A stretch of 64,000 nucleotides of DNA from Antedon mediterranea (lineage: Eukaryota > Echinodermata > Crinoidea > Comatulida > Antedonidae), in NCBI RefSeq assembly GCF_964355755.1, contig NC_092678.1, positions 7,908,922 to 7,972,921 of the forward strand. The letters are read 5' to 3'. The notes below the pieces were generated by a model. That model ran no database searches, was not told the DNA's origin, and worked only from the letters and a program-made list of their open reading frames with translations. Shown here one piece after another: positions 1,987 through 42,500 of the stretch (position 1 is its first letter; each line of letters begins with the position of its first letter). The translations under genes and the position numbers were made by a program.

Positions 1987-2058
1987 AGTGTTTCCAATGC
2001 TGTCAAACCAGCAAATGCATTGGCTGGTAATGTACTTATTTGGTTCCTGTACAAAGAC
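1987..2058 (-). CDS. Single 72-nt leucine-rich-repeat exon
   Basis: On the minus strand a pyrimidine-rich acceptor (TTTTACTTTTAAG) precedes 72 nt that end at a consensus donor, GTAAGT. Read in phase 2 the exon encodes one complete 24-residue LRR, SL then YRNQISTLPANAFAGL then TALETL. It matches the LxxNxIxxLPxxAFxGLxxLxxL pattern of typical extracellular LRRs. Symmetric phase-2 exons of 72 nt holding one repeat are known from genes such as LGR receptors and Slit. It is too short for ORF callers. It probably belongs to the same minus-strand gene as the SRCR and signal-peptide exons at higher coordinates, but linkage to them is inferred from strand and order only. Confidence 0.8.
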
Positions 2059-3346
2059 CTTAAAAGTAAAAAGAATGCACAGTATAAGTAAATCACAATA
2101 TCCAAGCTGTTTTTAAATTATTTTAGTTTTTCTGTCACCTCAAATGTTGAAATGTCTACATTCCTGTACATTATACAGTAGTTATACTGCATGTACTCTA
2201 TTGTATGTACTTTAGTTATGTACAAAATATACTATGTTAAAATAAAAATGTGGTAAATATATTTAAATGACTTATTTTCACAAAAGAAAATTTTACACCA
2301 AATTCAAATGGCTTGTTAGCAACCATACAATAAATGTATTATCTAATATGTAATACATATTTAGTATCTTACACAAATAAATAGTTCAATTATGGTGGAT
2401 ACATTTTAAAATTGTTGCTTTTTAAATTGGTTTTACTGTAAATAATCATTGAATCATAAAGTACATATTAGTCCATTATTACAATTGAACTTACAATACA
2501 TGCACTGTATTGTATCAACATTTTAATGTCAAAATATAAAATATATATTTAATAATTTTTATTCTCATAAAACAAAATCACTACATAAACAAATAGTAAT
2601 TATTATAATGATATTTATATAGTGATTGATTTTGAATTATTATGTATTACACAAAAATAAAATACATTCATGTTGAATGAACTAAAAACTAGTGATTTTT
2701 TATAAGATGATCACAATATATATTTATATTTCAATAATTTTTTTCTTATAAGACAAACTTACAACATAAACAAATATTAATTATTTAGTAACATTTGTTA
2801 TAACGGATATTTATATTGTGATATTTACAATAACAATTATTTTGAATTATATATTATAAAAAGTTCATTCATGTTGGATGAGCAAAAAACTAGTGATTTT
2901 TAAGATATGTTTTACAAGATCACAAATTGTGAAATTATATAATAATATTAATGCAAGCACTGTTTGTATCAATATTTTAATAATGTCAAAATATATAATA
3001 TGTATTTATATTTTGATGATTTTTTTCTCATAAGACAAAATTACAACATAAAGAAATACTAATTATTTAGTATAACAATCATTATAATGATATTTATATT
3101 GTGAAATTTTACAATTAATATTATTTTAAATTATTATGTATTACACAAAAATAAAGTTCATTCATGGTGGATGAACTAAAAACTAGTGATTTATAAAGAT
3201 ATTTTTTATAAGGTCACAAATTGTGAAATTATATAATAATATTATCCATTATCATTGTTTAACCAACAATTTAAAATAATTTGTAATTTAATTTCTAAAT
3301 TAAAACAAAATAGGTAAAAGTAAGGAAACATAAGCAATACACTTAC

Positions 3347-3409
3347 AGTATTTTCAATGCTGTCAAACCAACAAATGCATTGGCTGGTAATGTACTTATT
3401 TGGTTACCG
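3347..3409 (-). pseudogene. Damaged duplicate of the LRR exon
   Basis: Homologous to the exon at 1987-2058, with the same GTAAGT donor and an open NQISTLPANAFVGLTAL stretch. About 18 bases that include the splice acceptor and the first codons of the repeat are missing, so the exon probably cannot be spliced in correctly. It arose with the surrounding intron duplication. It could still be used if a cryptic acceptor exists upstream; transcripts would settle this. Confidence 0.65.
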
Positions 3410-4179
3410 TAAAAGTAAAAAGAATGCACAGTATAAGTAAATCACAATATCCAAGCTGTTTTTAAATTATTTTAGTTTTTCTGTCACCTCAAATGTTGAA
3501 ATGTCTACATTCCTGTACATTATACAGTAGTTATACTGCATGTACTCTATTGTATGTACTTTAGTGATGTCAAAATATACTATGTTAAAATAAAAATGTT
3601 GTAAATATATTTTAATAACTTATTTTATTAAAATAAAATATCTACAACAAATTCAAATTGTTTATAATATATATATAATAAATGTATTATCTAAAAAGTA
3701 ATACAGATTCAGTTTATTTAAATTGTTATATCTTACAAAAATAAATAGTTCAATCATGGTTGATAAATTAGAGGGAAAATGTAGCTTTTAAAATTCGTTT
3801 TACTGTATAATCACATTATGAAATTATTGAAGTACATAGTAGTCCATTATTACAATTGAAGTACATATTAGTATATTATTACAATTGAACCTACAATACA
3901 TGCATTGTATTATAAACATTTGAATGATGTCAAAATATAAAATTAATTAAAGTAAATATTCTTCTCAAAACGTATGAATGTATAGTTCTACGTGATATTG
4001 TTCACTATAGGTTTAATTATGTTACTCTGCACCTTATATCCTAATTTGGGTTTTATTTAGAGTGATCCCTTTGTTCTTATAACTATGGCATGTGATGCCA
4101 CTGCCTCTTTTTACCACTCAAACAAATAAAAACTTGGTTATACTGATCGGTGTAATAAATGTTTATTTATTGAAGTTCA

Positions 4180-4360
4180 TGACAGTTGTTGAATTTGAAT
4201 TTAATTATCAAGAAAGAAAGAAAAAATTACTACATAAACAAATACTAGTTATTTAGTAACAATGATTATGATATTATTATGATATTTATATTATGAAATT
4301 ATCAATCAAATTATTATATCCTCCAAAAAAAAAGTTTACTCATGAACAAGAAAGTGAATT
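4180..4360. repeat. Partial copy of the LRR-intron unit
   Basis: Contains the 'actacataaacaaatact' and 'agttatttagtaacaatg' segments of the units at 1640-3960. It lies immediately before the LINE insertion; the sequence resumes with a related copy at about 10960, so the LINE and the element inside it appear to have inserted into this repeat. Confidence 0.55.
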
Positions 4361-4434
4361 GTTTTTATATGTCATTTTCTTCCCAAATGAACCCCTGTAC
4401 CGAAACATTTCCTAACCAAGATGGATTAAATAAT

Positions 4435-12214: not shown

Positions 12215-12358
12215 AATCTTTGTTATTGGATAATACACATTGTACTTAACAAGCTCTGTATGTATATTTGCATTCCATCGAGTACATCTAGTGTTATTAA
12301 CACATAAACCATCTGAGTAACACGTCCAGACATTACATGCAATATGTTGGGCATTCGA
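12215..12358 (-). pseudogene. Cysteine-rich exon, probably a broken LRR N-terminal cap
   Basis: Minus-strand acceptor ...ATCATTATAG at 12359 and consensus donor GTAAGT below 12215 bound 144 nt. In the phase that continues the SRCR exon (phase 1) it reads ECPTYCM and then stops. In the next frame the rest is fully open and rich in Cys (CNVWTCYSDGLC). LRR N-terminal caps begin C-P-x-x-C-x-C, and the two frames overlap exactly where a CxC would lie. The simplest reading is a cap exon with a small frameshift. Alternatively the exon is real in phase 0 and another exon lies between it and the SRCR domain. It sits between the SRCR exon and the LRR exons, as expected for such a protein. Confidence 0.5.
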
Positions 12359-12825: not shown

Positions 12826-13083
12826 ATTGACAAATAACACTAGCATCCTCAGAATGTCCACAAATGTGTACCCTCATTCCATTATTAGGACAGTCTGTGA
12901 TAGCTGTCTCAATTCCTGAACATTGAACATCATCAAGCATAATCGGACCAGTCCCTTGACCAAAATAAGCTTGTCTTAGTCCTAGTCTTAGTTGTCGAAA
13001 TACAACTTGAGCGTCGTTGATGTCCCAGCCATTATCACATATTGTACCCCATTCTGTGCCATTGTAAACTTCAACTCGTCCCT
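12826..13083 (-). pseudogene. SRCR domain exon, 3' part (split by BEL-1)
   Basis: Encodes most of a scavenger receptor cysteine-rich domain: GRVEVYNGTEWGTICDNGW, then FGQGTGPIMLDDVQC, TDCPNNG and HSEDASVIC. It ends ...TGTCAAT followed by donor GTAAGG, a phase-1 boundary usual for SRCR exons. Cysteine spacing is of the group A type, but the second conserved Cys is Phe (VVFRQL, codon TTT where TGT is expected), which would lose one disulphide. The exon is cut at 13083 by BEL-1; the missing 5' piece is at 38086-38123. Joined, with one copy of the 5-bp duplication, the exon is 291 nt, phase 1-1 and fully open. SRCR domains bind ligands outside the cell. Confidence 0.9.
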
Positions 13084-13931
13084 TGTTTGGTCCCAAACTA
13101 GTTTATATTTAGAGAGGGCACATTATTAAGAAAATGACGTCATTTTAGGACCATGTGAGGAGAGGTATCTTGCATTAGAGAGGAGAGGATGTATGATCAC
13201 AGCTAGTGACTTTAATTACAGGATATTGACATATATTGTTTAATTTTTGATATTTACCTGAATTGTTTATGTACTGCAGATAGCGGGTGACTTTGCTATT
13301 TTCGGTAAGCTGCATTCCGCTACATTTATTGATCAATAACTCATACAGATTTAATGTTATTAGGCCAAGTTCTATTGAGACGCCATTAATTTAATAATTA
13401 AATGTTACCTAGCTAGGCCTAGGCCTATATATATTGATGAGATATGGCTTTGACCTGTTGTACCTTAATTTAATCATTTACTAAGTATTAGTATTAATAA
13501 GTCATTGTTAAAGTTACTGCATTGCATTAAGCACCTGGATACTATAGTTATGATAATCTTCGCAAAACTTTATAGTTCATGTGATCATTTTAATTGATTT
13601 ACGTATACAATGTCAATGGCATGTAGGTGTCGCGTCGTTGTAGGAGGAGTTAACCGCAATGATTTTGTTATCCGTTGCTATGACGACACGGTTTTGCATT
13701 TTTAATTAGTTTAAGGGATCGTCTTTTATATTGTTTTAACTTAAATACAAAACTTGTCAGTTTGACGCTTAAGGAGCCACATACTGTATATTGCTAGACA
13801 TGCATTTATAGGTCATTGTTATGTTTTGTTTTAGTAATCTGGTTCACATTCAAGAAACAGGAATAAAGGAGCACCTTGGGTGTTGAACTTGAATAACGAA
13901 TATCACTCGCATTATTTTTAGGGCAGTTACA
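13084..13931 (+). repeat. BEL-1 5' LTR
   Basis: 848 bp, TGTTTGG...TTACA. By eye it differs from the 3' LTR by roughly 15 substitutions plus several small indels, including a block near 13160 absent from the 3' copy. No standard primer binding site starting TGG follows it. Confidence 0.92.
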
Positions 13932-13971
13932 TTATTACGAAAATAACATAAGGTAGGAGATTTCTATTACT

Positions 13972-15481
13972 ATGTCAACAACATCATCAAGACTCACGTC
14001 TAAATCAAGTAGAGGGTCAACTACTTCACTCAGATTGAATGCAGCAGAGGCAAGGGCCGATGCTGCTGTGGCCAAGGCAAAGGAGGAGTTTAGGATTAAG
14101 AAAGCTCTTGCTGCCAAGGCTAAACTTGAGGCAGAGGCAGAGTTAGAACTGCTTAATATCAGAGAAGAAGCAGCGACATCCCTAGCAAGAGCAAGTGCTC
14201 TGGATAAAGAAATAGATAAAATAGAGGAACGAGACGAAGAATTAAGTGTCAATTTACCAGTTGAATCAGCCCAAGACCGGATGAGACCATTCATTGTGGA
14301 CAATAGGATCGAAGAAGATTTAGAATTACACGATAACGTACTTGAAAATCAATGCAATGAAGATGGGCAAACCAATGAAATAAAACCAGTTAAGCCTTGT
14401 GCCCCAACCGATGATGCGATGAACATGCTGATCCGTCAACAAATAGAGATGGCAAAGGCAATTGTTACAAGTCAGCAGAAGGCCCAGCTGCCACGACGGA
14501 AAATTAAACCATACAATGGTGAGGCAACAGAGTACAATGCATTCATAAAGGCATTCGAGCACGAAGTCGATAGCAAGACAGAGAGCAATAGTGAAAGACT
14601 GTATTACTTGGAACAGTTTACCATTGGAGATGTGAATAAATTAGTAAGGAGTTACATGCACACAGAAGGTGACAGAGGTTACGAGGAGGCAAGAAAGGCG
14701 ATTGGCAAAAGGTTTGGAAACAAGTACAAAATGACAGAAGCATACATGGAAAAGGCCCAATCAATAGACGAGATTCGTTCGGAAGATGCAAGTGCGTTAA
14801 GTAATTTTTCTTTGTTTCTATTAGAGTGTCGAAATGCAATGGAAGATTTGAATTATCTGTCTGAACTTAACCACACAAAAAACATCCAGATTTTAGTGGC
14901 AAAGTTACCGTATAGGCTAAGAGGGAAATGGCGCACTACAACAGACTACATACAAGAGGAACAATGAGAACCGTTACATTCGATGACTTTGTTGAATTTG
15001 TAGAGAAGCAGAGTAGGATTGCCAATAATCCTGTATATGGTTCGTTAAACTCAGAAAGGGCAAGCAAACCCCAACGTGAGAAGACTCAAAAGCCACCCAG
15101 CAAGGGAAGCTTCTCCACAACAAAGGAAGATGCCATTTGCCTTTATTGCAAGGAAACCCACAACCTTGAAAACTGCATCATGTTTGATGGGCTGTCTAGA
15201 GAAACCAAAATTGAATTTCTGAAGCAATCAAGAGGATGCTTTGGCTGTCTCCGTATAGGACACCGTAGCAAGGAATGCAGGCAACGGCTCGAATGTAAAA
15301 CTTGCAAGGGAGCTCACCCGACATCCCTACACAGAGATCCAAATGCTAACCAGCCGCCGAATGTTGGATCAGCCTGTTCTACAAGAGGCGAATGTACTCT
15401 CGCGATCGTACCAGTACAGGTTACAGCGAGAAACGGGAGTCAGCCGATCAAGACATACGCATTCTTTGATCCGGGAAGCAG
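13972..15481 (+). pseudogene. BEL-1 Gag and start of protease
   Basis: The first ORF (13972-14967) begins with an alanine/glutamate-rich coiled coil (about residues 20-90). It continues into the DUF1759-like Gag core (PYNGEATEYNAFIKAFEHEV and RLYYLEQF). After a slip near 14957 the second frame carries zinc knuckles CLYCKETHNLENC and CFGCLRIGHRSKEC, a third Cys/His cluster, and the start of an aspartic protease (AFFDPGSS). The coding sequence is cut at 15481 by the Gypsy element and resumes at 33309 in the protease. Gag packages element RNA in particles; the protease would mature it. BEL-2 in this window has the same architecture. Confidence 0.88.
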
Positions 15482-15606
15482 TGTTACGGGCTCGCTCGTT
15501 AGGCTGAAACCAACAAAAAGAACATAACAAAACACGTTGTAGTTGTCGTCCATCTTTTTTCATCTCTTCACTTTACTCTAGAGGGCTCACTTCCATGTGA
15601 CAAACA
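15482..15606 (-). repeat. Gypsy 3' LTR (left copy)
   Basis: 125 bp, TGTTACGGGC...GACAAACA on the plus strand. Only about two substitutions separate it from 33178-33300, counted by eye. Confidence 0.88.
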
Positions 15607-15871
15607 TAAACCCCCACTTAAAGACAGTTTGATATGATTAAACTTATAACTGTTTACTATAACATCTTAAATCTTTTCTTATACAGTAGTTATTTTAACA
15701 GGTCGTTGATATGAATTTACTTCAACTGCTTCTTTAAAATTTCACTAGTTCTAATTACTTTAAATCCGTGTATGCCATTAATGCATCACTCTATCACAAC
15801 TAACATATTATAATTAAATAAACACTTTTTAAATCAACAAAACTTTTAAAATCATTTCATGCATGTTTTAT
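15607..15871 (-). other. Gypsy 3' untranslated region
   Basis: Between the RNase H stop codon and the polypurine tract next to the LTR. AT-rich, no ORF. Confidence 0.7.
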
Positions 15872-16743
15872 CTAAACTCTTGACAAAGCGTCAGCTACAA
15901 CATTGTCTTTTCCTCTGATATGATGAATTTCCAGATTCATTTCTTGAACTGCTAAACTCCATCTCAACAAGCGTTGATTTTTGTCCTTCAGTCTTGCCAA
16001 GAACGTTAATGGGTTGTGGTCAGTCCAAACTACAATTGGAAACGGAGTAGATCCAAGATACACTTCAAAGTGCTTTAACGCTGACATCAAAGCTAATGTC
16101 TCCTTCTCAACAGTAGAATAACGCTTCTTATGCTGGTTGAATTTTCTCGTGTAGAAACACACAGGCTTGTCAACACCATTCTCGTCTGTTTGCGCCAACA
16201 CAGCACCAGAACCAACATCACTGGCATCAATCATTAACGAGAACTGTTTATCAAATTGTGGAGCCATCAACACCGGTTCGTTTGATAACATCGCTTTAAC
16301 TTTAATGAACGCATTATTGCATTCCTCCAACCACACAAAGCTCGCATTCTTTTTCAGCAGATTCGTTAATGGAGCTACAAGCGTTGAGAAACTTCTGCAA
16401 AAACGTCGATAAAACCCAGCCATTCCCAGGAACCGCATTAACTCCCGCTTACTCTTTGGAACTGGGAAATCACAGACTGCCTTAATCTTAGCACTTACTG
16501 GTTTTACTTTTCCGCAACCAACTTTATGACCTAAGAACACAATTTCTGGACATGAAAACTCGCTTTTCACCAAATTTACTGTCAACTTTGCAGCTGTCAA
16601 CCTGTCAAACAATGCCTTAATTCTCTGCACATGGACATCCCATGTATCACTATAAACAACCAAATCGTCTATATAAGCTTCACAGCCCTCCAACCCTGAA
16701 ATTATACCATTAACCAATTTCTGAAACGTGGCTGGTGCGTTTT
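15872..16743 (-). pseudogene. Gypsy RT C-terminal half and RNase H
   Basis: Continues the RT of the adjacent ORF after a one-base slip near 16755, in the conserved MPFGLKNAPATF region. It has the catalytic YIDD, FLGHKV, the connection segment, then RNase H (LMIDASDVGSGAVLAQ, the glutamate in VEKETLA, WTDHNPL) and ends DALSRV. Ending in RNase H with no integrase behind it is what sets this element apart from ordinary Gypsy elements. RT/RNase H copies element RNA into DNA. Confidence 0.9.
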
Positions 16744-19700: not shown

Positions 19701-19801
19701 TACAAAAAGAATCTGCTTCTTACGTGCAAATTCTGTAAACGTTTGATCATAAGGTTTACCTAAGTTCCTAAATTTCTGACGATACGCCTCTGGAACTAAC
19801 T
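16744..19801 (-). pseudogene. Gypsy Gag C-terminus, protease, integrase, RT N-terminal half
   Basis: A 970-codon open frame (16744-19656) starts within Gag. CCHC knuckle CFYCKKKGHIKADC lies at about residues 74-87 and the protease RDTGASQS near 165. The integrase zinc-binding HHCC (HLGVNKT... CKSCHAC) lies in the middle, followed by its catalytic core with QSDQGSNF and the glutamate in ALERFHQT. RT blocks 1-3 follow (IEPSCSAWSSPCILVPK, FCTDYRKVNAKT-like, FDLLKGYWQIPL). Upstream to 19801 the SCAN-like Gag segment (LVPEAYRQKFRNLGKPYDQT) is readable in another frame, so there is a slip near 19680. Gag then breaks at the BEL-2 insertion and resumes at 32230. Confidence 0.9.
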
Positions 19802-20616
19802 TGTTAACAGGTGTACAGGATAAGTCAGGCAGATAACAACAATCACGATGCTCAGTAATAAATCTGTCAAAGTATCTTTATTCTTTTCTCTTTCTTTCTT
19901 TAATTTGAGTATGGTCGAGGATTGAGAGGTTTCTAAACAATGATAAAAACAATAACAAACGTAATTAGCCTAAACTGAGGAATCGAGCTGATCCCTGTTG
20001 TCATGGCAACCGTAACTAGCTGAACAGCGTGTGCTCCATGCATCCATGCACCGAGTGGTGGCTAGGCTAAATTGACCAACGTCAACTATATAGGCCTACT
20101 ATAATACAATATTATGATCGCTGACGGTAGCTTATGCTACTCGGCCTATAAACGTTAACAATATAAAGATTTAACAAACAATAATATGTCGGCATAACGC
20201 CATCAACAAGTTATATAATGAGATCATTCTCAATTTCAATACTGAAGAACAGAGAGACGACAAGCCGTCGCCATGATGAACCGCTAGTCGTTAATTAAAG
20301 TGAAATTAACACAGGCCTAGTGATCAATATTACAATCAGAAAAAACGTACCGAAACTTCTGAACCTTCCTAGTACACTTGAAATCTTCCTTTATCTATTA
20401 ACAATATTATCTTAAAGTATCTATCTAGTTTCCCTATGAAACTATACTTTAAACTACACTTTGGATGTTTAGTTCCCCTATAGAACTACGAAACCATCTT
20501 TAACACATGGTTTTTTTTTGCCATCCTCCTCCGATCATGTCGAAGGTTATCGCTAGAGGGCTAATCTAAAATAATTATCTAGCGCCCTCATCTATATGTA
20601 TCTTATGAACTTTACA
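19802..20616 (-). repeat. BEL-2 3' LTR
   Basis: 815 bp, about ten differences by eye from 31414-32229, so the pair is younger-looking than the BEL-1 pair, as nesting requires. Confidence 0.9.
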
Positions 20617-20767
20617 CCGGCCCTCCTAATGCGAATAACATAAAATGAGCATTAGCAAACTGCAAAAACAATTAGTAATCTTAATAATTAGCCTCGTTTA
20701 AAAATTTGTATCATCGTTAACTAAATAGCGTAAGATTTACTTGTTAGCTATATTATGACATAAATAA

Positions 20768-21961: not shown

Positions 21962-21964
21962 CCA

Positions 21965-27491: not shown

Positions 27492-28822
27492 AATTTTTTC
27501 ACCACTTATAGTAAATTGGGGGTAGTTTATTTGGGATTTCATAAAATTTATATTAATAACATGGCACTTCGAAGGCTTGGGTAGCATGTCATTTTGTTTA
27601 CACCAACAACTCAAGGAATCTAAATGGGATTGAAGTTCTGATGATGTACTATTATTTTTTATATTAATTATTTCTCCCAGTGTTAGATCATCCACAAATT
27701 TCCAACGATTATCAGTGGTGTTACCCGCATCATTCACCATAACGGTAAATATGCTGGGTCCCAGTTTGGTACCCTGGGGGACCCCACACGTTATAGTTCT
27801 TAGTCCAGAACAATGTCCCTTAAATTTCACACACTGGGTGCGATTCATCAGAAAACTGCTAATCGTTGGAATTATCGATGGTCTAACACCAGATTCTATC
27901 ATCTTTGAAATAGCAACATTATGGTTTATCCTATCAAACGCAGTTGTGAAATCAACTGTACATAATGTGGCGTAGGCCCCTGGCACATCAATATTGGATA
28001 TAACCGTATTCAACATATCTACTAAGTAGTGTGTTGTACTAGTTCCTCTCACGTTACCATACTATTTACAATCCAATACTGGTTCGAAATCCGTTTTTAA
28101 CCATCCCGCTAGGAATGATTCAAATACTCTACCCAATATTTTAGTTAGTGAAATAGGTCGTAATTGGCCAACCATTGTCGGTTTTTTAACTTTAGGTACT
28201 GGTACAATTGATGCCGTCTTCTACACAGTTGGAAACACCCCTTCGTTTAGACAGTTATTAAAGATTAAAAACAGGGGTTGTGCTATTTCAAAAGAAAACA
28301 GCTTAATGAGTTTCACCGGAATATCATCTGGGTGGCCAGATTTATTGGAGTTTAATTTGTTTAAACTCTTCCAAATTTCTCCATGGTATATTTTGGGGGG
28401 TGGTTTTGTAGGCAAGTACGAAGGAAGTGTTTCCAATCTGAGTGGTGGAAGCTGGCAACATACTCTTGAGAAATGTTCATTAATTTGTTCAGCCTGTTCT
28501 TCAACAGATTCACCATAATTATTTAATTTAACATTGTCTGACTTATTGTTATATCCTGTAATGTTTTTAATTGTTTTATTCCATTTACCGGGTTGTGCAT
28601 TTTTTAGTCCTTCTATATTATCCTTATAATGTTTCTCTTTAGCTTTGTTAATTTCATACTTTACTTTGTTTCTTAGGCTTCGCCATAAATTTATATTATT
28701 AGATCTATATGCCTTTTGTCGCTCATCAATCAATTTATGTATGCGATAGTTCATCCACGGCTTTTCATTATTTCGTCGTCGAATTACTTTTTGCGGAAAA
28801 TGTTCTTCGTATTTTTGTTTTA
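27492..28822 (-). pseudogene. LINE A RT N-terminal and central part
   Basis: The first portion (28822-28221) holds KPWMNYRIHKLIDERQKAYR and the pre-RT linker to NKSGHPDDIPVKLIK. After slips near 28220 and 28060 the core reads TVDFTTAFDRINHNVA, GVPQGTKLGPSIFTVMVND and a catalytic FVDD (about 27688). It breaks at ...TISGEKI where LINE B entered. FVDD in place of YADD is within the range seen in CR1-like RTs. Confidence 0.82.
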
Positions 28823-31398
28823 GAACATCTTTTCCACATCAGCAATTATGGCAACTTCTTCTTCCCTGAAACGGAGTAGCACCCCCAATAGGTTGCTAGT
28901 CAGGTTTGGTCCGGGTAACAAAACATCATTAAGAGCTACTCCCTGATATCTTGCTCCACAGACGAAAACCACTCTTAATTTCCCAGGTTTCTGGGGATTG
29001 TAAACGCCATGGTGAGGGATATACCATTTGTGTCCATCTTGTATAATTTCGTCAGGTGGTACTCTCTCTGCATATCCCTTGGTTAGCAATTCATCCATGT
29101 AGTTGATGTATTCCATTGCATATGGTTTATCTGCCTTCAGACGACGACATAATGACTCTAGTCGTTTGACTGCTTGTAGTCTGTTGTCAGGCATGACCAC
29201 TTCATTGCGTCTAAAGGGAAGGCTAATTGTAAAGTGATTGTCGGGTCCCTTCACTATGCTTTCGTTTAATTTCCTGAGGAATAATTTATCTTCAACAGAA
29301 TGGTTTTGTGTAAGATCCAAACCACTTTCTGGGAAGTCAATCTCGGTGCTCCTTTTTACTAACTTCTCCAACGTGTCGTAAGTAGACTTTTCTACATTTC
29401 TTCCAACGATGTTTGCTGGGTATGGGTGACTACTTTCGTGGTTACCAATCAAGTTCCAAACGATCCACCTCAGGTTAGTTCTGGTTGCATGGGGAGCGTC
29501 GATAGGTCCTGTTTTTACTTCCAGAGGTGTATAAGCACTTGCTACACCCATGCCTATCAGTAGACCCACTTCTTTACCCTTATCTATCTGGGGTATTTGT
29601 ACGCCTTGTAAATGTGGCCACTTGTCGATGTCCGATTGTTTAGGAAAGTGTGCCTTCTGAATAGGTAAGTTGCTCTTAGTATATGCAGTGTGTATAACAG
29701 TTTCCATATTTCTGTTGTCTAGGGAAGTTACCTTTAGTCCCTTTACCGCCTTTGTTGTTAATCGGTACGTAGACCCCATCGTGTCAATGGTGATACATTC
29801 ATTCCTTCCACCAACGCCAAGTTGTTTTACGAGTGCCTCTGAGCAAAACGAAATGGTGCTCCCTGGATCTAGAAAGGCGTATGTTTCTACTTGGTGTGAG
29901 CATCCAACGCTTACGCGAACTGGGATCACCGCCAAGGCACATTCTCCTTGATTTATCTTGGCACACGCAGCTTGCAGTTGGTTAGGCTGCTTATCGTTAT
30001 TCTTGTTTGTCGTTTCAGTGTTGACAACTGGGTCTTGGTGGAGCGTGGTTGGGTGCCTCCTCTTACATTTGGTGCACGTGTGGCGACTGTTGCAATGTTT
30101 AGCCAAGTGACCAGTAGTTAAGCAGCCGTAGCATAATCTGTGTTCTTTAATGTAGGTTAGTTTCTCTGGTCTTTGCAGGTTGTCGAATTTCCTACATTCT
30201 TCTATTCTGTGTGCGCCTTTACTGCAGTAAAGACAGTCTCTTTGTACTTCAACTGCAGCATAAGCTCCCTTTGGTCTATGTGGTGGTTTGCGCTGAGATA
30301 CCTTTTCGTCTTTAATGTTCCCAAACGTAGGATTACTAAGAATCCTGGACTGTTTTTCTACGAATAGTACAAAGTCGTCAAATTGTACCCTTCTGGTTTC
30401 TTGAATAAGGTCTGTTTTGGTCCTCCATTTGTCTCTCATGCGGTAAGGCAGTTTCAACGTGAGGGTCTGTATGCTACTTGTATGATTTAATTCTTGTAAA
30501 TGATCGAGACTGGAAATGGAGTTCTTACATTCGATAAGTAGTAATGAGTATCTGGACAAAGAATCTTTATCCTCTGCCTTTATCTCAGGAAAGTCCTTTA
30601 ATGATGTAATATAGGCATCCGCCAATCTGAATGGATTACCGTATTTATCTATTAGCGCCTGCTTCGCTTGTCTAAAGCCTTTTCCAGGATCCATAGCTAA
30701 ATAGCTCTTGACCAGATTATTCACCTCACCAGTTGTATATTGTTCTAAGTAGTACAGTTTGTCTCTCTCGCTGCGAACCTTGCCTTCCACCTCGTGCTCA
30801 AAGGCTCTCTTAAATCGTCCATAATCCATTGGGTTGCCGTCGAATTTTGTAAGTCCCCTTTTAGGTAGACTTGTTTGTATCAACCATTGGGACAGTACTT
30901 CTCCCTGTTTTTCAATCAAATTCTGTAGTAGTATATTATGGTCTGTTCAACGGCTGGAGTAGGTGTAATCGGGTAAGGTGCAGAGCTTATTTCGGGTTTA
31001 GGTGTAACTGTGGTCTGATCTGTAGTTGGGTTTGCCCTTGGAAACCATGGTGTTGCATTAGGTGATAGTGTAGGTGGTACTGGTTCTAAGACAGGCTGTA
31101 CCGCTTCGTTTAATGAGTCAAGGTATTGACTAACCTTATCGACCGCATCAGTATTTGGTACCTGAGGTGTATCGTCAGCCGTAATGGAGAATCGTTCTAG
31201 CTCTTTGTCCAAGGAATCTGAGCGGGCTTGTGCTACGGCTAACTTACCCTCTTCTTCTATTTGTTCAAGTTCTAATCTTTTCTGTAAGGTCTTCTTATTA
31301 TATTGAGCTCTCACCTTAGCAACCGCCAATTCAGCTCTTGCTTCTGCTGCTGATATCTCTAATTGGCTACTTCTAGTCGAACTCTGTGTGCTTGACAT
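28823..31398 (-). pseudogene. BEL-2 Gag, protease and RT N-terminal half
   Basis: The Gag ATG (31396-31398) is only 15 nt inside the 5' LTR. A coiled-coil N-terminus (AEARAELAVAKVRAQY) runs to about 30920, where the frame slips. The 699-codon frame below carries the DUF1759-like core (FDGNPMDYGRFKRAFEHEVE), knuckles CLYCSKGAHRIEEC and CYGCLTTGHLAKHC, and a third cluster. The BEL protease (YAFLDPGSTISFCSEALV) follows, then the RT start (KWYIPHHGVYNPQKPGKLRV and ADVEKMF). It ends at the LINE A junction. BEL-1 has the same order and about the same length. Confidence 0.9.
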
Positions 31399-31413
31399 TG
31401 TCAAGTTTCGAAA

Positions 31414-32229
31414 TGTTAACAGGTGTACAGGATAAGTCAGGCAGATAACAACAATCACGATGCTCAGTAATAAATCTATCAAAGTATCTTTATTCTTTTT
31501 TCTTTCTTTCTTTAATTTGAGTATGGTCGAGGATTGAGAGGTTTCTAAACAATGATAAAAACAATGACAAACGTAATTAGCCTAAACTGAGGAATCGAGC
31601 TGATCCCTGTTGTCATGGCAACCGTAACTAGCTGAACAGCGTGTGCTCCATGCATCCATGCACCGAGTGGTGGCTAGGCTAAATTGACCAACGTCAACTA
31701 TATAGGCCTACTATAATACAATATTATGATCGCTGACGGTAGCTTATGCTACTCAGCCTATAAACGTTAACAATATAAAGATTTAACAAACAATAATATG
31801 TCGGCATAACGCCATCAACAAGTTATATAATGAGATCATTCTCAATTTCAATACTGAAGAACAGAGAGACGACAAGCCGTCACCATGATGAACCGCTAGT
31901 CGTTAATTAAAGTTAAATTAACACAGGCCTAGTGATCAATTATTACAATCAGAAAAAACGTACCGAAACTTCTGAATCTTCCTAGTACACTTGAAATCTT
32001 CCTTTATCTATTAACAATATTATCTTAAAGTATCTATCTAGTTTCCCTATGAAACTATACTTTAAACTACACTTTGGATGTTTAGTTCCCCTATAGAACT
32101 ACGAAACCATCTTTAACACATGGGTTTTTTTTGCCATCCTCCTCCGATCATTTCGAAGATTATCGCTAGAGGGCTAATCTAAAATAATTATCTAGCGCCC
32201 TCATCTATATGTATCTTATGAACTTTACA
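31414..32229 (-). repeat. BEL-2 5' LTR
   Basis: 816 bp, partner of 19802-20616. Element-orientation ends are TGTAAAG...TTAACA. Confidence 0.9.
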
Positions 32230-32819
32230 TAACTCATAAGCTGACAAAACAGCATTTTTAACCGCATCATAGCTTTCAAATTGATCATCAGCCAAAGCAG
32301 AAAATACCTCTTGGGCTTTACCCACAAGAGCAGTTTGTAACAACACAGTCCAGTGTCTAGCAGGCCACTTTAATCTATTAGCAATTTTCTCAAAAGCTAA
32401 AAAATATGTCTCTACCTCGTCCTCATTAAACTTGGGAACCCATTTAATATTCTGAGTAATCTCTGAATCATTAGGTGTAGAAACCCGTGTGGTGTGACCC
32501 ATTTGGTTAGCTAATTCTAATTTCCTTAACTCAAATTCATGTTTTTCTTTTTCCATTTCTCTTTGAGTTTGCATCTCTAGAATCTCTATTTTTCTTCTTT
32601 CAAAACCTCGACCTCATTCCCTGCAGTTTTTACTGATTCATGAGTAATTAAACCAACATGACTTCCAATCACATTTATCAAGTCATATTTATTCATGGAA
32701 TCATTTATAGATGCTCCAACCCTAGTACCTAGGAGTCGCAAACGCTCCTCTGATAGCTGAGCTACCACCTCAATGGACATGCTATCCAAAAATTCCTCGT
32801 CAAAATCACTTTCTGACAT
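32230..32819 (-). pseudogene. Gypsy Gag N-terminal half
   Basis: Starts MSESDFDEEFLDS (ATG 32817-32819). A slip near 32580 leads into a glutamate/lysine-rich helix (EMEKEKHEFELRKLELA) and the Gag core KWVPKFNEDEVETYFLAFEK, ending AVLSAYEL at the BEL-2 junction. The Gag resumes at 19801 with VPEAYRQ. Gag of this SCAN-like type is usual for Gypsy elements of animals. Confidence 0.85.
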
Positions 32820-33177
32820 AGTTTCTATTTGAAACAAACAAACAAAAACACAGGTTAAAATAATAACCAATATGACGATAATTAAGGCACCAGTAATAAA
32901 TTACCTGCCAAGCCCACACAGTATTAACCCTACCGTGCGCCGTGGTCTCAATAACTAGACCCCTAAAATCAAAGCCAAACCGACGTCTAGTATCACAGGC
33001 AAGCCTACACAAGCCTAAAACAACAACATAGTGTACTGGCTCGACGACCGCCAAACCCCGTTCGTTATAAAACGCCTCTAAACCTAAAACGACCAGCTTA
33101 GAATAAACAACTAAAATTACCATCAGTTCGATCTACAACTACAATTCCGTACTTTGTTCTCGGATGACCCCCCAATT
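32820..33177 (-). other. Gypsy 5' untranslated leader
   Basis: Between the 5' LTR and the Gag ATG. Immediately inside the LTR, reading on the minus strand, AATTGGGGGGTCATCCGAG contains TGG and is the likely primer binding site; I cannot name the tRNA. The ORFs here carry no motif. Confidence 0.6.
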
Positions 33178-33308
33178 TGTTACGGGCTCGCTCGTTAGGC
33201 TGAAACCAACAATAAGAACATATCAAAACACGTTGTAGTTGTCGTCCATCTTTTTTCATCTCTTCACTTTACTCTAGAGGGCTCACTTCCATGTGACAAA
33301 CCCATCAC
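33178..33308 (-). repeat. Gypsy 5' LTR (right copy)
   Basis: Matches 15482-15606 except for about two substitutions and the last 7-8 bases at the outer tip, followed by the AGCAG target duplication. Confidence 0.85.
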
Positions 33309-34557
33309 AGCAGCATATCATTTATATCAGATGAGCTACTTCACAAAACAGGAGCAGAGGGAAAACGGGCCAAACTAAGTATTGACACAATGGGAAATAA
33401 ACATACTATGACCACACAAATCATAAAAGGATTGATGATCAGCAGACTAGATGGTCAAGGGAAGGTGGAGTTACCAGTTGCCTATACTAAAAACAGACTT
33501 CCGATTTCTAGCAGACATATCCCAACCAATGAAGATATCGCAAAATGGCCACACCTAAAAAACACAACAGCAACGAATATTGACACTGGAATTGGCCTTT
33601 TAATTGGAAACACCGTAGCTGAAGCGTATTGCCCACTAGCAACCATTACTGGACCACCTAATGCACCACATGCTACTGTACTAGAACTAGGTTGGGCTGG
33701 TTTATATGGAATTTGGTTAGAGAAGGCAATGACACAGGCCAGAGTCAACCAGCCAACAGAATTGACGTTATCAGTATTACACAATTAGAAGAAAACCAAC
33801 GTTTAGAGAAACTAGTGAGAACGGCCACTGAACTAGATTTTCCTGAAAGAGGACTCGTTCATGCAAAACAACCGTCGAGAGAGGATAAGTTGTTCGTTTC
33901 AAAGGTCAACAATAGCATCCGTCTCATTAATGGACACTACCACATCGATCTGCCATTTAGAGAAGAAACGCCAATACTTCCTAATAATAGGTTTATGGCA
34001 GTTAAGAGACTGGAATGCTTGAAAAACAAACTGCGTCGAAACCAGGAGTTCCAACACGACTACCAAGAGTTTATGAGAGAACTTATACAGAAAGGATTTG
34101 CTGAGAAGGTAGACAATATCGAACCGACGATAGGAAAGACCTGGTACATACCACATCATGGAGTATATAACCCACACAAACCAGGGAAGATACGTGTTGT
34201 CTTCGATTGTGCAGCCAAATTTCAGGGAACATCTCTCAACAATCTATTACTCCCAGGATCTAATATGACAAACAGTTTAGTAGGAGTCTTACTGAGGTTT
34301 CGAGAAGACCCAGTCGCTATAATGGCCGACATTGAGGCCATGTTTCACCAAGTGAAGGTGCCAGTGAAAGATAGAGACTATATGAGATTTTTCTGGTGGC
34401 CAGAAGGAGATGTCAACCAGCAGCCAGTGGAGTGTAGAATGACAGCACATTTGTTTGGAGCAGCGTCTTCTCCTGCTCGCGCCAATATGGCTTTAAGACA
34501 AACAGCTTTAGACAATAGACCAAGTACAGAAGACGAAGTCACGCAACTTCTATATTG
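33309..34557 (+). pseudogene. BEL-1 protease end and RT N-terminal half
   Basis: Continues the protease cut at 15481 (SISFISDELL and SIDTMGNKHTMT). A slip near 33690-33780 leads to the BEL spacer (LDFPERGL, REDKLFVSKVNN) and the RT: WYIPHHGVYNPHKPGKIRVV, LNNLLLPGSNMT, ADIEAMFHQVKVP, RMTAHLFGAASSP. A slip just before 34555 separates this from the YIDD active site, so no functional RT can be made from one frame. Confidence 0.88.
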
Positions 34558-36137
34558 ATGACTGCTTGAAGTCAGTTGGATCAACATCTGATGGTATAAA
34601 TATGGTAAAAAACCTTAAGGAACTCTGTGCAAAAGGCGGGTTTAATCTAGCTAAATGGACCAGTAACAGACGAGACGTCATCAACTCTGTTCCAGTAGAG
34701 AACAGATCAAAGGAACTACAAGCCCTAGCATTTAAGGAAGAAGGAATTCCAAGCGAAAGGGCACTTGGAGTGCAATGGGACCCAAGTAGTGACTGTCTAT
34801 GTTATCAGCTTTTGAGTATTACAGAGCAGCCATGTACCCGAAGGGGCATATTATCTACAATAAGCTCGGTGTTTGATCCTATGGGACTGGCATCGCCCGT
34901 GATGTTAACACCTAAGATTCTTCTTCAAGAACTAATCAAGAAAGGCAGGAATTGGGATAATTCAGTTGAGGGAAATGAATTACGTAGGTGGAAACGCTGG
35001 CTAGAGAGCTTACCTCTAGTTGAGGAATTGCGTGTGCCCAGGTTTGTTACATGTAAACTTAGAACCGACCAAGAACTTCACGTGTTTGCGGACGCAAGCG
35101 AAAATGGTTATGGAGTTGCTATATATGTGCGGTCGCAGGTAGGAGAAACGATCGACAGTAACATACTTTATGGACGATCAAGAGTGGCACCTCTTAAGAA
35201 GATGACGATTCCCAGACTAGAATTAACCGCTGCAACTCTAGCAGTTAAATGTGCAAGTCTAGTTCAAGAAGAAGTTGACACCACATTCAAAAGAGTAATA
35301 TTCTGGACCGATAGCATGCTAGTTCTAAACTACATAAGAAACAACAAAACAAGATTTAGCACCTTTGTAGCAAATAGGTTATCAATCATTCACGAAGGAA
35401 GTGAGTGCGAGCAGTGGAGACACGTGGATACTGCAAATAATCCTGCAGACATAGCTTCACGAGGTATGCACTTAAGCAAGAAGGTGGAGGTTGAAATGTG
35501 GCTAAAGGGGCCGGTGTTCTTAAGAAACAAAGAAGACAAGTGGCCAAAGGGAAACCTAGGAATGGCTTTGCTGTCAATAAGTGACCCAGACGTAAAATAT
35601 GCAGCAGCAGCAACAGTTAATTCATGTGATTATATTGAATCATTGTTTGGAAGATTTTCTAGTTGGAGCCGGTTAAAGGTGTTTGTCGCTTGGATGCTTA
35701 GAGTCAAGGGTAATTTAATGCAACGTTGCAAAACCCGTACACCACCAAAGGGAAGAGTAAGAAGGATTGAGCCAATAACAAGCTCAGAGCTTGATGTCGC
35801 TGAGACAGAAATAATAAGATATCTGCAGTCGGAAGCTTCAAAACAACCTATGGGCAATGACACATCTAAGTTGGACCCCTTTAAGGATGAAAAGGGAATC
35901 ATCAGAGTCGGTGGAAGAATAGCAGGAGCATCTATACCATTAGAAGCTAAACACCCAATATTGCTTTCAAAAACATCCATAGTTGCTGGTATAATAATCA
36001 ATGATATTCACCAACGCATCGGTCATGTAGGAAGGAATGCCGCACTAGCAAGATTCAGAGAGAAGTATTGGGTGACAAGAGCACTTAAGTTGACAAAGAG
36101 TATTCTCTCAAGGTGTGTTACTTGTCACCCAGTATAA
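34530..36137 (+). pseudogene. BEL-1 RT C-terminal half, RNase H, integrase zinc domain
   Basis: FYIDDCLKSVG opens the frame. Next are SSVFDPMGLASPVMLTPKIL (Peptidase_A17/BEL linker), RNase H with HVFADASENGYG, LELTAATLA and WTDSMLVLNY, and then the integrase HHCC (IHQRIGHVGRNAALARFREK, CVTC). The frame ends at 36137 with a slip. A long spacer between RNase H and integrase (about 35480-35960) is normal for this family. Confidence 0.88.
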
Positions 36138-37144
36138 AGATAAAACAAAAACAAACAAACTTGTCGTAGGTATAATTAATGGACGTTTGGAGACCCAGAA
36201 AATGTCTGAATTACCAAAGCAAAGATTAATGAGCGGAGAGAAGCCGTTTACCAGATCTGGAGTTGACTACTTTGGTCCAATAGAAATCAAAAGAGGAAGG
36301 GCAGTCTTAAAACGGTACGGAGTTGTGTTCACATGCTTCAATACACGAGCGATTCATCTAGAAATGGCTGATTCGCTAGATACGGACTCCTGCATAAATG
36401 CTGTAAGGCGATTTATTGCCAGACGAGGTGCTGTAAGATATGCTGTCGGACAACGGAACCAATTTAGTAGGAGCCGACAAGGAGCTAAGAAAGGGAATGA
36501 AGGAATGGAACAACACACAGATTCACACAGTATTAAGACGAGACGGAATAGATTGGAGATTTAATCCTCCAGCTGCCTCCCACCAAGGGGGAGTCTGGGA
36601 AAGAATGATCAGATCAATAAGAAAGGTGTTATATGGATTGTTAAGGGAGCAGACAATAAAACTAAATGATGAAGGTCTGAGGACATTGTTTTGTGAGGTG
36701 GAGGCGATTGTTAACGGACGGCCATTGACAATGCTGTCTGATGATCCTAAGGAAGATCGCCCACTTACGCCGAATCACCTGTTACTGGCACAAGCAGATT
36801 ATATACCTGCTCCATGTATATTCAGTGAGGCAGATGTATATCGTAAGAGATGGAGACAGGCGCAATACCTGGTTAATGTATTCTGGGCAAGATGGAGGAA
36901 GGAGTATTTGGCGACATTGATGGAGCGTCAGAAATGGTTTAAAGAGCGTAGAACTGTGGATGTAGGAGACATTGTTATAATTGCGGAGAATTCCCCAAGA
37001 GGACAGTGGCGAATGGCAAGAGTGTTGGAAGTTTATAAGGATGCAAGAGGACTGGTGAGATCCGTTAAGCTGAGAACTGCAAGCGCTGAACTGGTACGGC
37101 CCATCACGAAGTTGGTTGTGATTCTGGAGGCAGAGAGTCAGTAG
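36115..37144 (+). pseudogene. BEL-1 integrase core and C-terminus
   Basis: VDYFGPIEIKRGRAVLKRYG and RAIHLEMADSLDTDSC give the first catalytic Asp region. A one-base slip near 36440 leads to LSDNGTNLVGADKEL (second Asp) and GVWERMIRSIRKV (Glu). The BEL C-terminal domain follows, ending ELVRPITKLVVILEAESQ, with the stop at 37144. About 110 bp of 3' UTR and the polypurine tract follow before the LTR. Confidence 0.88.
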
Positions 37145-37258
37145 TTCAGATGCTGTTTAATAGATTGTTAAATTGTTGTTACATTAATTTATTTATTGTT
37201 AAATTGTTAACTATGTTTGCTAATGCCTTAAATCAGTATAGCATTAGAGGGGCCTGGA

Positions 37259-38085
37259 TGTTTGGTCCCAAACTAGTTTATATTTAGAAAGGGCGCATTA
37301 TTAAGAAAATGACGTCATTTTAGGACCATGTGAGGAGAGGATGTATGATCACAGCTAGTGACTTTAATTATAGGATATTGACATATATTGTTTAATTTTT
37401 GACATTTACCTGAATTGTTTATGTACTGCAGATAGCGGGTGACTTTGCTATTTTCGGTAAGCTGCATTCCGCTACATTTATTGATCAATAACTCATACAG
37501 ATTTAATGTTATAAGGCCAAGTTCTATTGAGACGCCATTAATTTCGGTTATGTTACCTAGCTAGGCCTAGGCCTATATATATTGATGAGATATGGCTTTG
37601 GCCTGTTGTACCTTAATTTAATCATTTACTAAGTATTAGTATTAATAATTCATTGTTAAAGTTACTGCATTGCATTAAGCACCTGGATACTATAGTTATG
37701 ATAATAATCTTCGCAAAACTTTATAGTTCATGTGATCATTTTAATTGATTTACGTATACAATGTCAATGGCATTTAGGTGTCGCGTCGTTGTAGGAGGAG
37801 TTAACCGCAAGGATTTGTTATTCGTTGCTATGACGACACGGTTTTGCATTTTTAATTAGTTTAAGGGATCGTCTTTTATATTGTTTGTTTTAACTTAAAT
37901 ACAAAACTTTTCAGTTTGACGCTTAAGGAGCCACATACTGTATATTGCTAGACATGCATTTATAGGTCATTGTTATGTTTTGTTTTAGTAATCTGGTTCA
38001 CATTCAAGAAACAGGAATAAAGGAGCACCTTGGGTGTTGGACTTGAATAACGAATATCACTCGATTTATTTTTAGGGCAGTTACA
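37259..38085 (+). repeat. BEL-1 3' LTR
   Basis: 827 bp, partner of 13084-13931, followed directly by the TCCCT target duplication. Confidence 0.92.
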
Positions 38086-38123
38086 TCCCTCAAAGATATT
38101 GCTGCCATCCACAAGTCTAATGT
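38086..38123 (-). pseudogene. SRCR domain exon, 5' part
   Basis: On the minus strand, acceptor ...GTTATGCAG precedes AC ATT AGA CTT GTG, reading IRLVDGSNIFEG. This is the usual first strand of an SRCR domain. It joins in frame to GRVEVYNGTEW at 13083 if BEL-1 and one TCCCT are removed. The exon opens in phase 1, which fits the phase-1 donor of the signal-peptide exon at 42425. Confidence 0.88.
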
Positions 38124-38379
38124 CTGCATAACAACAATTACAACATAAGTTTAAAACATATCTTTACATGTATACTGCTATTAATCCTACTTGAATGTTA
38201 GTAATAGTAGTAGTGATAATATTATTCTGCCCTATACAAATAAGTAAATAAATAGTTTGCGGAAAATGTTTACTGAAGCTTAAAAATAAATTATTATTAT
38301 TACTTAATTACTGCTTATCATCTTTAAATTATCAAGTGCGACAATTAGATAAAATAATAATCGTATATGATACTGTGCA
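38124..38379. other. Intron next to the SRCR exon
   Basis: AT-rich, no feature seen apart from the splice acceptor at its left edge. Confidence 0.5.
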
Positions 38380-41026
38380 ACGAAAATGGAAGGGATATAC
38401 GGCGATCAAAACCAGTCAAATCTTATAAAGTGTGACGTAACAATCGTATGTGATAATACGCAACGAAAAATGGAAGTGATATCCGGCGATGAAAACAGTC
38501 GAATCTTATAAAGTGTGACGTAACAATCGTATGTGATAATACACATACAAAATGGAAGCGATGTCCGGCGATCAAAACCAGTCAAATCTTATAAAGTGGG
38601 ACGTAACAATCGTATGTGATAATACGCAACAAAAATGGAAGTGATATCCGGTGATGAAAACCTGCCGAATCTTATAAATTGTGACGTAACAATCGTATGT
38701 GATACTATGCATACAGAATGGAAGCGATGTCCGGCGATTACAATCAGTCAAATCTTATAAAGTGTGACGTAACAATCGTATGTGATAATACTCATACAAA
38801 ATGGAAGCGATGTCTGGCGATCAAAACCAGTCAAATATTATAAAGTGCGACGTAACAATCGTGTGTGATAATACGCATACAAAATGGAAGCGATGTCCGG
38901 CGATCAAAACCAGTCAAATCTTATAAAGTGGGACGTAACAATCGTATGTTATAATACGCAACAAAAATGGAAGTGATATCCGGCGATGGAAACCTGCCGA
39001 ATCTTATAAATTGTGACGTAACAATCGTATGTGATACTATGCATACAGAATGGAAGCGATGTCCGGCGATTACAATCAGTCAAATCTTATAAAGTGTGAC
39101 GTAACAATCGTATGTGATAATACTCATACAAAATGGAAGTGATGTCTGGCGATCAAAACCAGTCAAATATTATAAAGTGCGACGTAACAATCGTATGTTA
39201 TAATACGCAACAAAAATGGAAGTGATATCCGGCGATGGAAACCTGCCGAATCTTATAAATTGTGACGTAACAATCGTATGTGATACTATGCATACAGAAT
39301 GGAAGCGATGTCCGGCGATTACAATCAGTCAAATCTTATAAAGTGTGACGTAACAATCGTATGTGATAATACTCATACAAAATGGAAGCGATGTCCGGCG
39401 ATCAAAACCAGTCAAATCTTATAAAGTGGGACGTAACAATCGTATGTTATAATACGCAACAAAAATGGAAGTGATATCCGGCGATGGAAACCTGCCGAAT
39501 CTTATAAATTGTGACGTAAAAATCGTATGTGATACTATGCATACAGAATGGAAGCGATGTCCGGCGATTACAATCAGTCAAATCTTATAAAGTGCGACGT
39601 AACAATCGTATGTGATAATACTCATACAAAATGGAAGCGATGTCTGGCGATCAAAACCAGTCAAATCTAATAAAGTGCGACGTAACAATCGTATGTGATA
39701 ATACTCATACAAAATGGAAGCGATGTCTGGCGATCAAAACCAGTCAAATTTTATAAAGTGCGACGTAACAATCGTAGGTGATAATACGCAACGAAAATGG
39801 AAGTGATGTCCGGCGATCAAAACCAGTCAAATCTTATAAAGTGTGACGTAACAATCGTATGTGATAATACGCAACGAAAATGGAAGTAATGTCCGGTGAT
39901 CAAAACCAGTCAAATCTTATAAAATGTGACGTAGCAATCGTATGCGATAATACGCAACGAAAATAGAAGCGATGTCCGTCGATCAAAACTAGTCAAATCT
40001 TATAATGTTTGACGTAACAATCTTATGTGATAATACGCAACAAAAATGGAAGCGATGTCCGTGATCAAAACCAGCCGAATCTTATAAAGTGTGACGTAAC
40101 AATCGTATGTGATAATACGCAACGAAAATGGAAGCGATGTCTGGCGATCAATACCAGTCAAATCTTATAAAGTGCGACGTAACAATCGTATGTGATAATA
40201 CGCAACGAAAATGGAAGCGATGTCCGGCGATCAAAAACAGCCAAATCTTATAAAGTGTGACGTAACAATTGTATGTGATAATACGCAACGAAAAATGGAA
40301 GTGATGTCTGGCGATCAAAACCAGTCAAATATTATAAAGTGCGACGTAACAATCGTATGTGATAATACGCATACAAAATGGAAGCGATGTCCGGCGATCA
40401 AAACCAGTCAAATCTTATAAAGTGGGACGTAACAATCGTATGTTATAATACGCAACAAAAATGGATGTGATATCCGGCGATGGAAACCTGCCGAATCTTA
40501 TAAATTGTGACGTAACAATCGTATGTGATACTATGCATACAGAATGGAAGCGATGTCCGGCGATTACAATCAGTCAAATCTTATAAAGTGCGACGTAACA
40601 ATCGTATGTGATAATACTCATACAAAATGGAAGCGATGTCTGGCGATCAAAACCAGTCAAATCTTATAAAGTGTGACGTAACAATCGTATGTGATAATAC
40701 GCATACAAAATGGAAGCGATGTCTGGCGATCAAAACCAGTCAAATCTTATAAAGTGCGACGTAACAATCGTATGTGATTAATACTCATACAAAATGGAAG
40801 CGATGTCTGGCGATCAAAACCAGTCAAATCTTATAAAGTGCGACGTAACAATCGTAGGTGATAATACGCAACGAAAATGGAAGTGATGTCCGGCGATCAA
40901 AACCAGTCAAATCTTATAAAGTGTGACGTAACAATCGTATGTGATAATACGCAACAAAAATGGAAGTAATGTCCGGCGATCAAAACCAGTAAAATCTTAT
41001 AAAATGTGACGTAGCAATCGTATAAT
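38380..41026. repeat. 83-bp satellite array, about 32 copies
   Basis: Unit: TGTGACGTAACAATCG, then 'tatgtgataatacgcaac', 'aaaatggaagtgatgtccgg', 'cgatcaaaaccagtcaaatc' and 'ttataaag'. Variants distinguished by CATACAAAAT or CAACGAAAAT, and by GAAACCTGCCGAATC, recur as blocks of three or four units (about 250 and 332 bp). That is a higher-order structure. Every unit keeps a TGACGTAA box (CRE/ATF-like). It lies in the first intron of the inferred host gene. ORFs here are by-products of the repeat. Confidence 0.92.
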
Positions 41027-41029
41027 TGA

Positions 41030-41200
41030 ATGTTTTGGATAAAATGTTTTGAATGAAATGTTTTAAAATGAATGTTTTGAATGTAGTGTTTTAAATGAAA
41101 TGTTTTGAATTAAATGTTTTGAACGAAATGTTTTGAACGGAATGGTTTGAATGAAATGTTTTGAATGAAATGTTTTGAATGAAATGTTTGAATTGAATTG
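41030..41200. repeat. 14-bp minisatellite (GAATGAAATGTTTT)n
   Basis: About twelve imperfect copies directly abutting the 83-bp satellite. Confidence 0.85.
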
Positions 41201-42424
41201 AAAAGTCAAACCTTTGGCGGCGCATGTCATTCTTACTCGCGACTTTTTTTCTCAATTTCATATCATTATATATGCCAAGTTGTTTGGAATGGCGTGCGTT
41301 TCTTGGCAGCTATTAGGATAAATTACGTTTATTTGCATATTTCCAAATCCATGTCTGTTTGGATTCTCTGTAAAGGATCCATATTGATGACAGCGTGGAA
41401 AGGAGATGACTAATGACAAATTTACTATTTTAGGTAATCAATAATTTGTATGTGAAATTAAAATTGAAACCTTATCTTTAAAAGTTTCTTGATAAAACAA
41501 ATCTTATCGTCTTAAATGTAAGTCCGTTCCAATACTATTATATACCTTTAAATTATTAAGAAAATGTACCGAGGAAAATTATCTACATTATGGAAATGTG
41601 GAAGCATGGAGGACATATCTCACTTTATATTCAGTTGAGATGCATTGCAATGTATAAGAGAAGAACAAATAAAAACACAAGATTTAATTTAGAATAATGA
41701 GTTAGATGTATAGGAAATATTCTGCACCAATAACAATAATGTTAAAATGTTATATATTCTGGGAACTACAATAATACCTTAAGGTGTTTTGACAAATTTA
41801 TAAAATGATTTAAAACTGCACAGCTCACAGACAGCTTATAAATGCAATATATAGGCCTAGTTTATGTTTTTCTTTTCAGTTGCTGCTCCCCAACATGAGC
41901 AACTTTTTCAAGCTCAGCGCGAATCGTTTCGGTTTGACGCTTGGCGCGCGTGTAAAGTGCTCAGTGTGAACCGGCCTTAAGTGTGTGGATGCATGGAAAG
42001 GTGAACAAAATAGTGCAAAATATTAGTTTATGAACAAATAGGAACAACTCTTGCAATTCAAATTTCACTATTTTTTCTTTAAAAGAAAAACTATTGACAA
42101 CATTAACTAGAGAATTTTATTACACTATAATTAAGATAAAGCTAAAATGCATATTCGAATAATGAAAGTTCATATAAATTGATGTTCATAAAAATGTAAA
42201 ATGTATTTAAATGAACTTACATCACACAATTCAACATATTATTTCTAAAATGTATAGTTCGAAACATTATTCATTTCAATAAAACTAGAATAATAAATGT
42301 TGTAAAATAGGGATGGTTAGACCTTATAACCACAAATTCTGAAAAGATCCATGATTAATATAATGCCCTACAATATTATAATATCTATTAAAAATGATAA
42401 ATATTAAGAGATAAGTAATCATAC
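41201..42424. other. Intron, nothing recognised
   Basis: AT-rich. A 71-codon plus-strand ORF at 41198-41413 has no motif. 'ttggcgcgcgtgtaaagtgctcagtgtgaacc' marks a GC-richer patch near 41940, but I cannot assign it. Confidence 0.4.
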
Positions 42425-42500
42425 CGGAATTTGAACCAACATCAGCACAACTAGAAATCGATAACTCCACCAATAATATTACCACTTTAAAGACAAACAT
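42425..42500 (-). CDS. Signal-peptide exon of the SRCR/LRR host gene
   Basis: Encodes MFVFKVVILLVELSISSC then ADVGSNS: a positively charged start, a hydrophobic core and a small-residue cleavage region, as in secretory signal peptides. It ends TCC G|GTATGA, a phase-1 donor. The next minus-strand exon found (38123) opens in phase 1, and the junction codon would be GAC, followed by IRLVDGS of the SRCR domain. The frame is open further upstream to another ATG at 42570-42572. I prefer the internal Met because it places the hydrophobic stretch at the N-terminus. No promoter elements could be identified. Confidence 0.65.

Follow-up and report, generated by a model that had tools for sequence, protein, structure and literature searches.

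A probably disabled, retrotransposon-split copy of an apparently undescribed SRCR-LRR-GPCR family in the crinoid Antedon mediterranea

LGRs combine an extracellular LRR array and a class A 7TM in one protein, with a CC hinge just before TM1, and are mainly known as hormone receptors present in few copies. Type C LGRs, in which LDLa is expected, include RXFP1/2, Drosophila LGR3/LGR4, and the orphan GRL101. In the VLRs of lamprey and hagfish, LRR cassettes are assembled somatically, expression is in lymphocytes, and a stalk provides the anchor. Sea urchins and other invertebrates have multi-SRCR scavenger receptors, a third relevant group, with phase 1-1 SRCR exon arrays. For ambulacrarians, a crinoid among them, a survey by Veenstra (PMC8286064) reports three LDLa-bearing type C receptors, each with a single orthologue; SRCR is mentioned neither by that survey nor by a starfish study (PMC11863921).

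Here, we analyse a 64,000-nt stretch of contig C9 of Antedon mediterranea (the window). The original prediction placed in it a hidden minus-strand gene for an SRCR-LRR receptor, with signal-peptide (SP), SRCR, cysteine-rich LRRNT-like, and LRR exons in this order. All of these exons are present, in the predicted order and on the predicted strand. The features are as follows (a slash marks an exon-intron boundary):

42425..42572, minus strand, SP exon, with 10 further copies that are 94-98% identical
38355..41023, no strand assigned, 83-bp minisatellite (32 copies), located in the intron that separates the SP exon from the SRCR fragment
38086..38123, minus strand, 5' fragment of the SRCR exon, cag/AC ATT AGA CTT GTG GAT GGC AGC AAT ATC TTT GAG GGA
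13084..38085, plus strand, BEL/Pao-type LTR retrotransposon inside the SRCR exon, LTRs 13084-13931 and 37259-38085
15482-33301, insertions nested in the BEL/Pao element: Gypsy-type (minus strand), second BEL/Pao (minus strand), non-LTR RT (minus strand)
12826..13083, minus strand, 3' fragment of the SRCR exon, donor CAA T/gtaagg, phase 1
12215..12358, minus strand, LRRNT exon, frame broken relative to intact paralogues
3347..3408 (about), minus strand, decayed LRR cassette, ~12 nt gone, splice acceptor included
1987..2058, minus strand, single-LRR exon of 72 nt, intact (SLYRNQISTLPANAFAGLTALET), of phase 2-2

The exons of the predicted gene are thus real, but this copy of it is broken, by a retrotransposon in SRCR and by frameshifts in LRRNT, and it extends past the left edge of the window. 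SP, SRCR, LRRNT, and LRR exons do belong to one gene type, as ten loci and a clean frame on C7 attest; the real type, however, is an LRR-containing GPCR whose 7TM exon lies outside the window. The window very probably contains the 5' half of a paralogue, now disabled, from a family of SRCR-LRR-7TM receptors. The gene models are predictions based on splice signals and paralogy.

The SP exon reads MSNVEM...KKMFVFKVVILLVELSISSCADVGSNS/G, with an inner Met at 42500, and ends in ...TCC G/gtatga, a phase 1 donor. This donor matches the phase 1 acceptor of the SRCR exon (cag/AC ATT), so the predicted 1-1 phase of the junction is borne out. The genome surveyed (354 Mb, 18 contigs) contains 11 copies each of the SP and LRRNT exons, those of the window included. 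The 10 further copies of each have 83-98% DNA identity and are mostly paired at the same loci; therefore, it is reasoned that the window exons are beyond chance. Loci on the opposite strand were excluded from the alignments (three for the SP exon; for LRRNT the fourth row, which was uninformative). One SP exon copy lies at C9:8074648-8074866, and no matching LRRNT or 7TM exon was found near it.

At ten loci on three contigs, the exons follow the arrangement SP-(SRCR)-LRRNT-LRR-7TM, in one order and on one strand each:

C9, 7.95 Mb (window) and 8.02 Mb
C7, 4.04, 4.16, 4.26, 4.42, 3.20, and 3.15 Mb
C5, 16.32 and 16.24 Mb

At five of the ten, namely the window and the four C7 loci at 4.0-4.4 Mb, the interval from SP to LRRNT includes SRCR exons; the C7 loci carry 3, 3, ~17, and 3 of them by match coordinates and splice sites. 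None were found in this interval at the other five. The number of SRCR modules would be changeable without loss of frame, because the SP, SRCR, and LRRNT exons meet at phase-1 introns. When C7:4418238-4479967 is spliced in silico, 29 exons with canonical sites give a 1296-aa frame with no internal stop, which contains 3 SRCR, LRRNT, 23 LRR, and 7TM; the model picks fitting exons, and two more LRR-like stretches were omitted because their splice sites did not fit. In a Pfam scan of this model, the three SRCR domains (306.9 bits) lie above the cut-off, and LRR_8 and 7tm_1 are found too. Across the genome, at least 150 SRCR exons were scored. In a comparison with the PDB, its tektin matches chain 8snb, a sea-urchin entry, better than the human one (174.7 vs 136.2 bits), in weak agreement with an echinoderm origin. 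A tblastx comparison of C5 with C9 gave output dominated by repeats.

The coding part of the 7TM exon of the window locus lies at C9:7900756-7901778, on the same strand and ~7 kb past the left edge of the window, with additional LRR exons in between. It is part of a 354-aa open frame, and its phase-2 acceptor fits the LRR donors. The exon opens with YNSEYSSLCCLVG, which is the CC hinge before TM1, and continues as a class A GPCR (Pfam 7tm_1, 1e-28). The LGR arrangement of an extracellular LRR array followed by a class A 7TM is found in one protein in the C7 model; the window locus has the same order in a broken frame. The best PDB match of the 7TM exon is RXFP1 (8e-45, 156.7 bits), followed by the glycoprotein-hormone receptors LHCGR (103 bits) and TSHR (93 bits), and by LGR4 (~50 bits). 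By these bit scores, in a set of matches from which GRL101 and insect LGRs were absent, the 7TM is closest to relaxin receptors, as expected of type C.

The family shares with type C LGRs its single-repeat LRR exons, its CC hinge, and a class A 7TM nearest RXFP1. It differs from them in having 0 to ~17 SRCR where LDLa is expected, and in its tens of 7TM copies in the genome, some of which contain stops. No LDLa was found in the C7 model by Pfam scan. A six-frame pattern scan of the window, of 50 kb on its downstream side, and of the 5' intervals on C7 and C5 found none either. Since the LDLa of type C was not found, the family is not filed as RXFP or GRL101; it is an SRCR-LRR-GPCR family, LGR-like, with SRCR in place of LDLa. 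It shares phase 1-1 SRCR exon arrays with multi-SRCR scavenger receptors, but combines SRCR with LRR and 7TM. Such a family is apparently undescribed: a literature search found no description of the SRCR-LRR-7TM architecture in the portions of the literature available to it, subscription papers and preprints lying outside its scope. A locus at C3:7037501-7047000 is a second SRCR-bearing LRR-GPCR form. There, SRCR exons likewise come before an LRRNT-like exon, an LRR exon, and a 7TM that is ~44% identical, but the locus, known from unspliced exons, also has a Kringle domain (2.8e-18), and its 7TM is more distant. RXFP-like 7TM exons with 67-87% identity to that of the window locus are clustered at C7 5.49-5.78 Mb, C1 24.25-24.46 Mb, and C8 24.38-24.49 Mb, which points to a large GPCR family that has expanded.

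One lesion of the window copy is the split SRCR exon. The retrotransposon within it is ~25 kb in size, begins with TG and ends with CA, and has a perfect 5-bp TSD, TCCCT, on either side; on the minus strand, the 3' flank of the insertion reads AGGGA CGA GTT GAA GTT... The element is assigned to the BEL/Pao type because it encodes DUF1759, Pao peptidase, integrase zinc-binding, and DUF5641 domains. When the empty site is rebuilt, a single SRCR frame of 291 nt and phase 1-1 is recovered, with a Pfam SRCR match above the cut-off (2e-25, 89.5 bits). An SRCR ORF read straight from 13102 was rejected; it suggested a phase-2 acceptor, at odds with the SP exon, and the LTR pair accounts for this misfit. 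The LTRs of the outer element differ by a K2P of 0.024, and those of the inner pair by 1.2% (the LTRs of the nested second BEL/Pao lie at 19802-20616 and 31414-32229). The outer element is not new, as indicated by its LTR divergence of ~2.4% and the later insertions nested in it. The window thereby captures gene turnover in the act, a retrotransposon-split paralogue whose empty site can still be read.

Other lesions were found as well. The cysteine-rich exon at 12358-12215 is LRRNT-like, as originally claimed: in the two intact C7 paralogues it reads CPTYCTCNVQ...ITR in a single frame, phase 1 in and 2 out, and compared with these the exon in the window has lost 2 bp and gained 3 bp and 1 bp at separate points, the frame being broken by the 2-bp deletion and the 1-bp insertion. 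One of the two LRR cassettes in the window is without a splice acceptor, and the other (2058-1987) has the acceptor aag/ and the donor gtaagt. In the 3' fragment of the SRCR exon, Phe replaces a Cys of the C7 paralogues (QVVFRQL vs QVVCRQL). The reading frame of the 7TM exon is still open. Its private codons, ten in number, are 8 nonsynonymous to 2 synonymous; two paralogues have 3:12 and 3:6, or 6 to 18 when pooled (Fisher p 0.006). In addition, C197Y removes a cysteine kept in five of five paralogues compared. Judging by its position, this is presumably the cysteine of the second extracellular loop whose partner in class A receptors is in TM3. The uninterrupted coding exons of a functional gene are not found in this copy. 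It is the split SRCR, the LRRNT frameshifts, the loss of the LRR acceptor, the change of Cys to Phe in SRCR, and the 7TM replacement excess together that mark it as disabled, and a working receptor is very unlikely.

Other readings of the locus were weighed. The long, repeat-filled introns would allow the SP, SRCR, and LRR exons to come from different neighbouring genes that are accidentally collinear, yet the same order and strand recur at ten loci and the C7 frame is continuous over 1296 aa, leaving this reading almost no probability. An innate-immune SRCR-LRR receptor that lacks a 7TM and is functional, either secreted or in the membrane, would agree with the ordered SP, SRCR, LRRNT, and LRR exons and their fitting phases. 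It is largely refuted and retains very little probability, given that a 25-kb element splits the SRCR exon, the LRRNT exon is frameshifted, the paralogous loci run on into a 7TM exon, and no LRRCT-like exon was noticed downstream in pattern and ORF scans.

The two remaining readings accept the family but dispute the fate of this copy. It might be expressed in an altered form, in which the split SRCR is skipped, SP is joined in frame to LRRNT, and the open 7TM exon is used; phase-1 junctions would permit the skip, and loci on C5, C7, and C9 have no SRCR. The frameshifts fall within the LRRNT exon itself, however, and the 7TM carries the replacement excess and lacks its loop cysteine, so that we regard such expression as highly improbable. 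The lesions and the insertion were read from one assembly, and the insertion could be polymorphic. The insertion and indels may then be private to the sequenced chromosome, with intact alleles of the locus segregating in the species, and the rapid turnover of the family, evident in near-identical copies, would agree with this. Several separate lesions at the locus and the age of the element speak against it, and we consider it unlikely, though with an appreciable chance of being correct. The reading of the window copy as a disabled paralogue is retained.

The LRR exons of the family are uneven in their variation. Six loci were sampled, which gave 42 type-1 cassettes, 32 of them distinct as exons; thirty more cassette loci lay outside the sample. 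In the xLxxN motif of these cassettes, codon 1 encodes Y, D, S, N, E, F, or G, codon 3 encodes Y, S, R, D, or E, and codon 4 encodes S, G, Y, N, D, R, W, or E, whereas most remaining codons are base-for-base invariant. The mean nucleotide difference is 0.43 at the x codons, 0.07 and 0.17 in the flanking introns, and 0.026 in the scaffold, where variation is lowered because the exon filter itself demanded part of the scaffold pattern. Among 22 distinct exons, the x codons show a nonsynonymous difference of 0.505 against a synonymous difference of 0.053, as pairwise counts that are phylogenetically non-independent. Because the presumed binding face has changed more than the intron background, diversifying selection would be the plain reading of these sequences; a targeted process could also lie behind the diversity.

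This pattern resembles that of VLRs, in which a near-identical LRR scaffold likewise varies at the exposed strand positions of LxxLxLxxN. Unlike VLRs, the family consists of germline GPCR exons; its 7TM anchor argues against VLR membership, and the germline DNA holds no sign of somatic assembly. We tentatively suggest, at somewhat less than even chances, that the expanded GPCR family serves in recognition, whether of microbes, of self/non-self, or of gametes. It would combine a VLR-like LRR surface with SRCR, and its near-identical LRR cassettes would have been diversified at concave-face codons by selection or a targeted process. An immune function is a conjecture based on domain content. If the suggestion is true, variable, antibody-like recognition would be coupled directly to G-protein signalling, and multiplied LGRs with SRCR arrays and a diversified LRR surface would represent a way, so far unreported, in which hormone receptors gave rise to recognition receptors.

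By sequence, intact members start with a signal peptide and 0 to ~17 SRCR, continue with a cysteine-rich LRRNT cap and arrayed single-LRR exons, and end in a CC hinge followed by a class A 7TM similar to that of RXFP. The ectodomain would bind ligand mainly via the concave face of the LRRs, SRCR modules may supply further ligand contacts, and the hinge, by analogy with LGRs, would relay binding to G-protein signalling. The window copy could presumably no longer work in this manner once the BEL/Pao element had split its SRCR exon and other lesions had accumulated.

Elsewhere in the window, a 2.19-kb tandem duplication occupies 55811-60188 (copies 55811-57997 and 57999-60188). With zero substitutions between its copies, it is either very recent or an assembly artefact.
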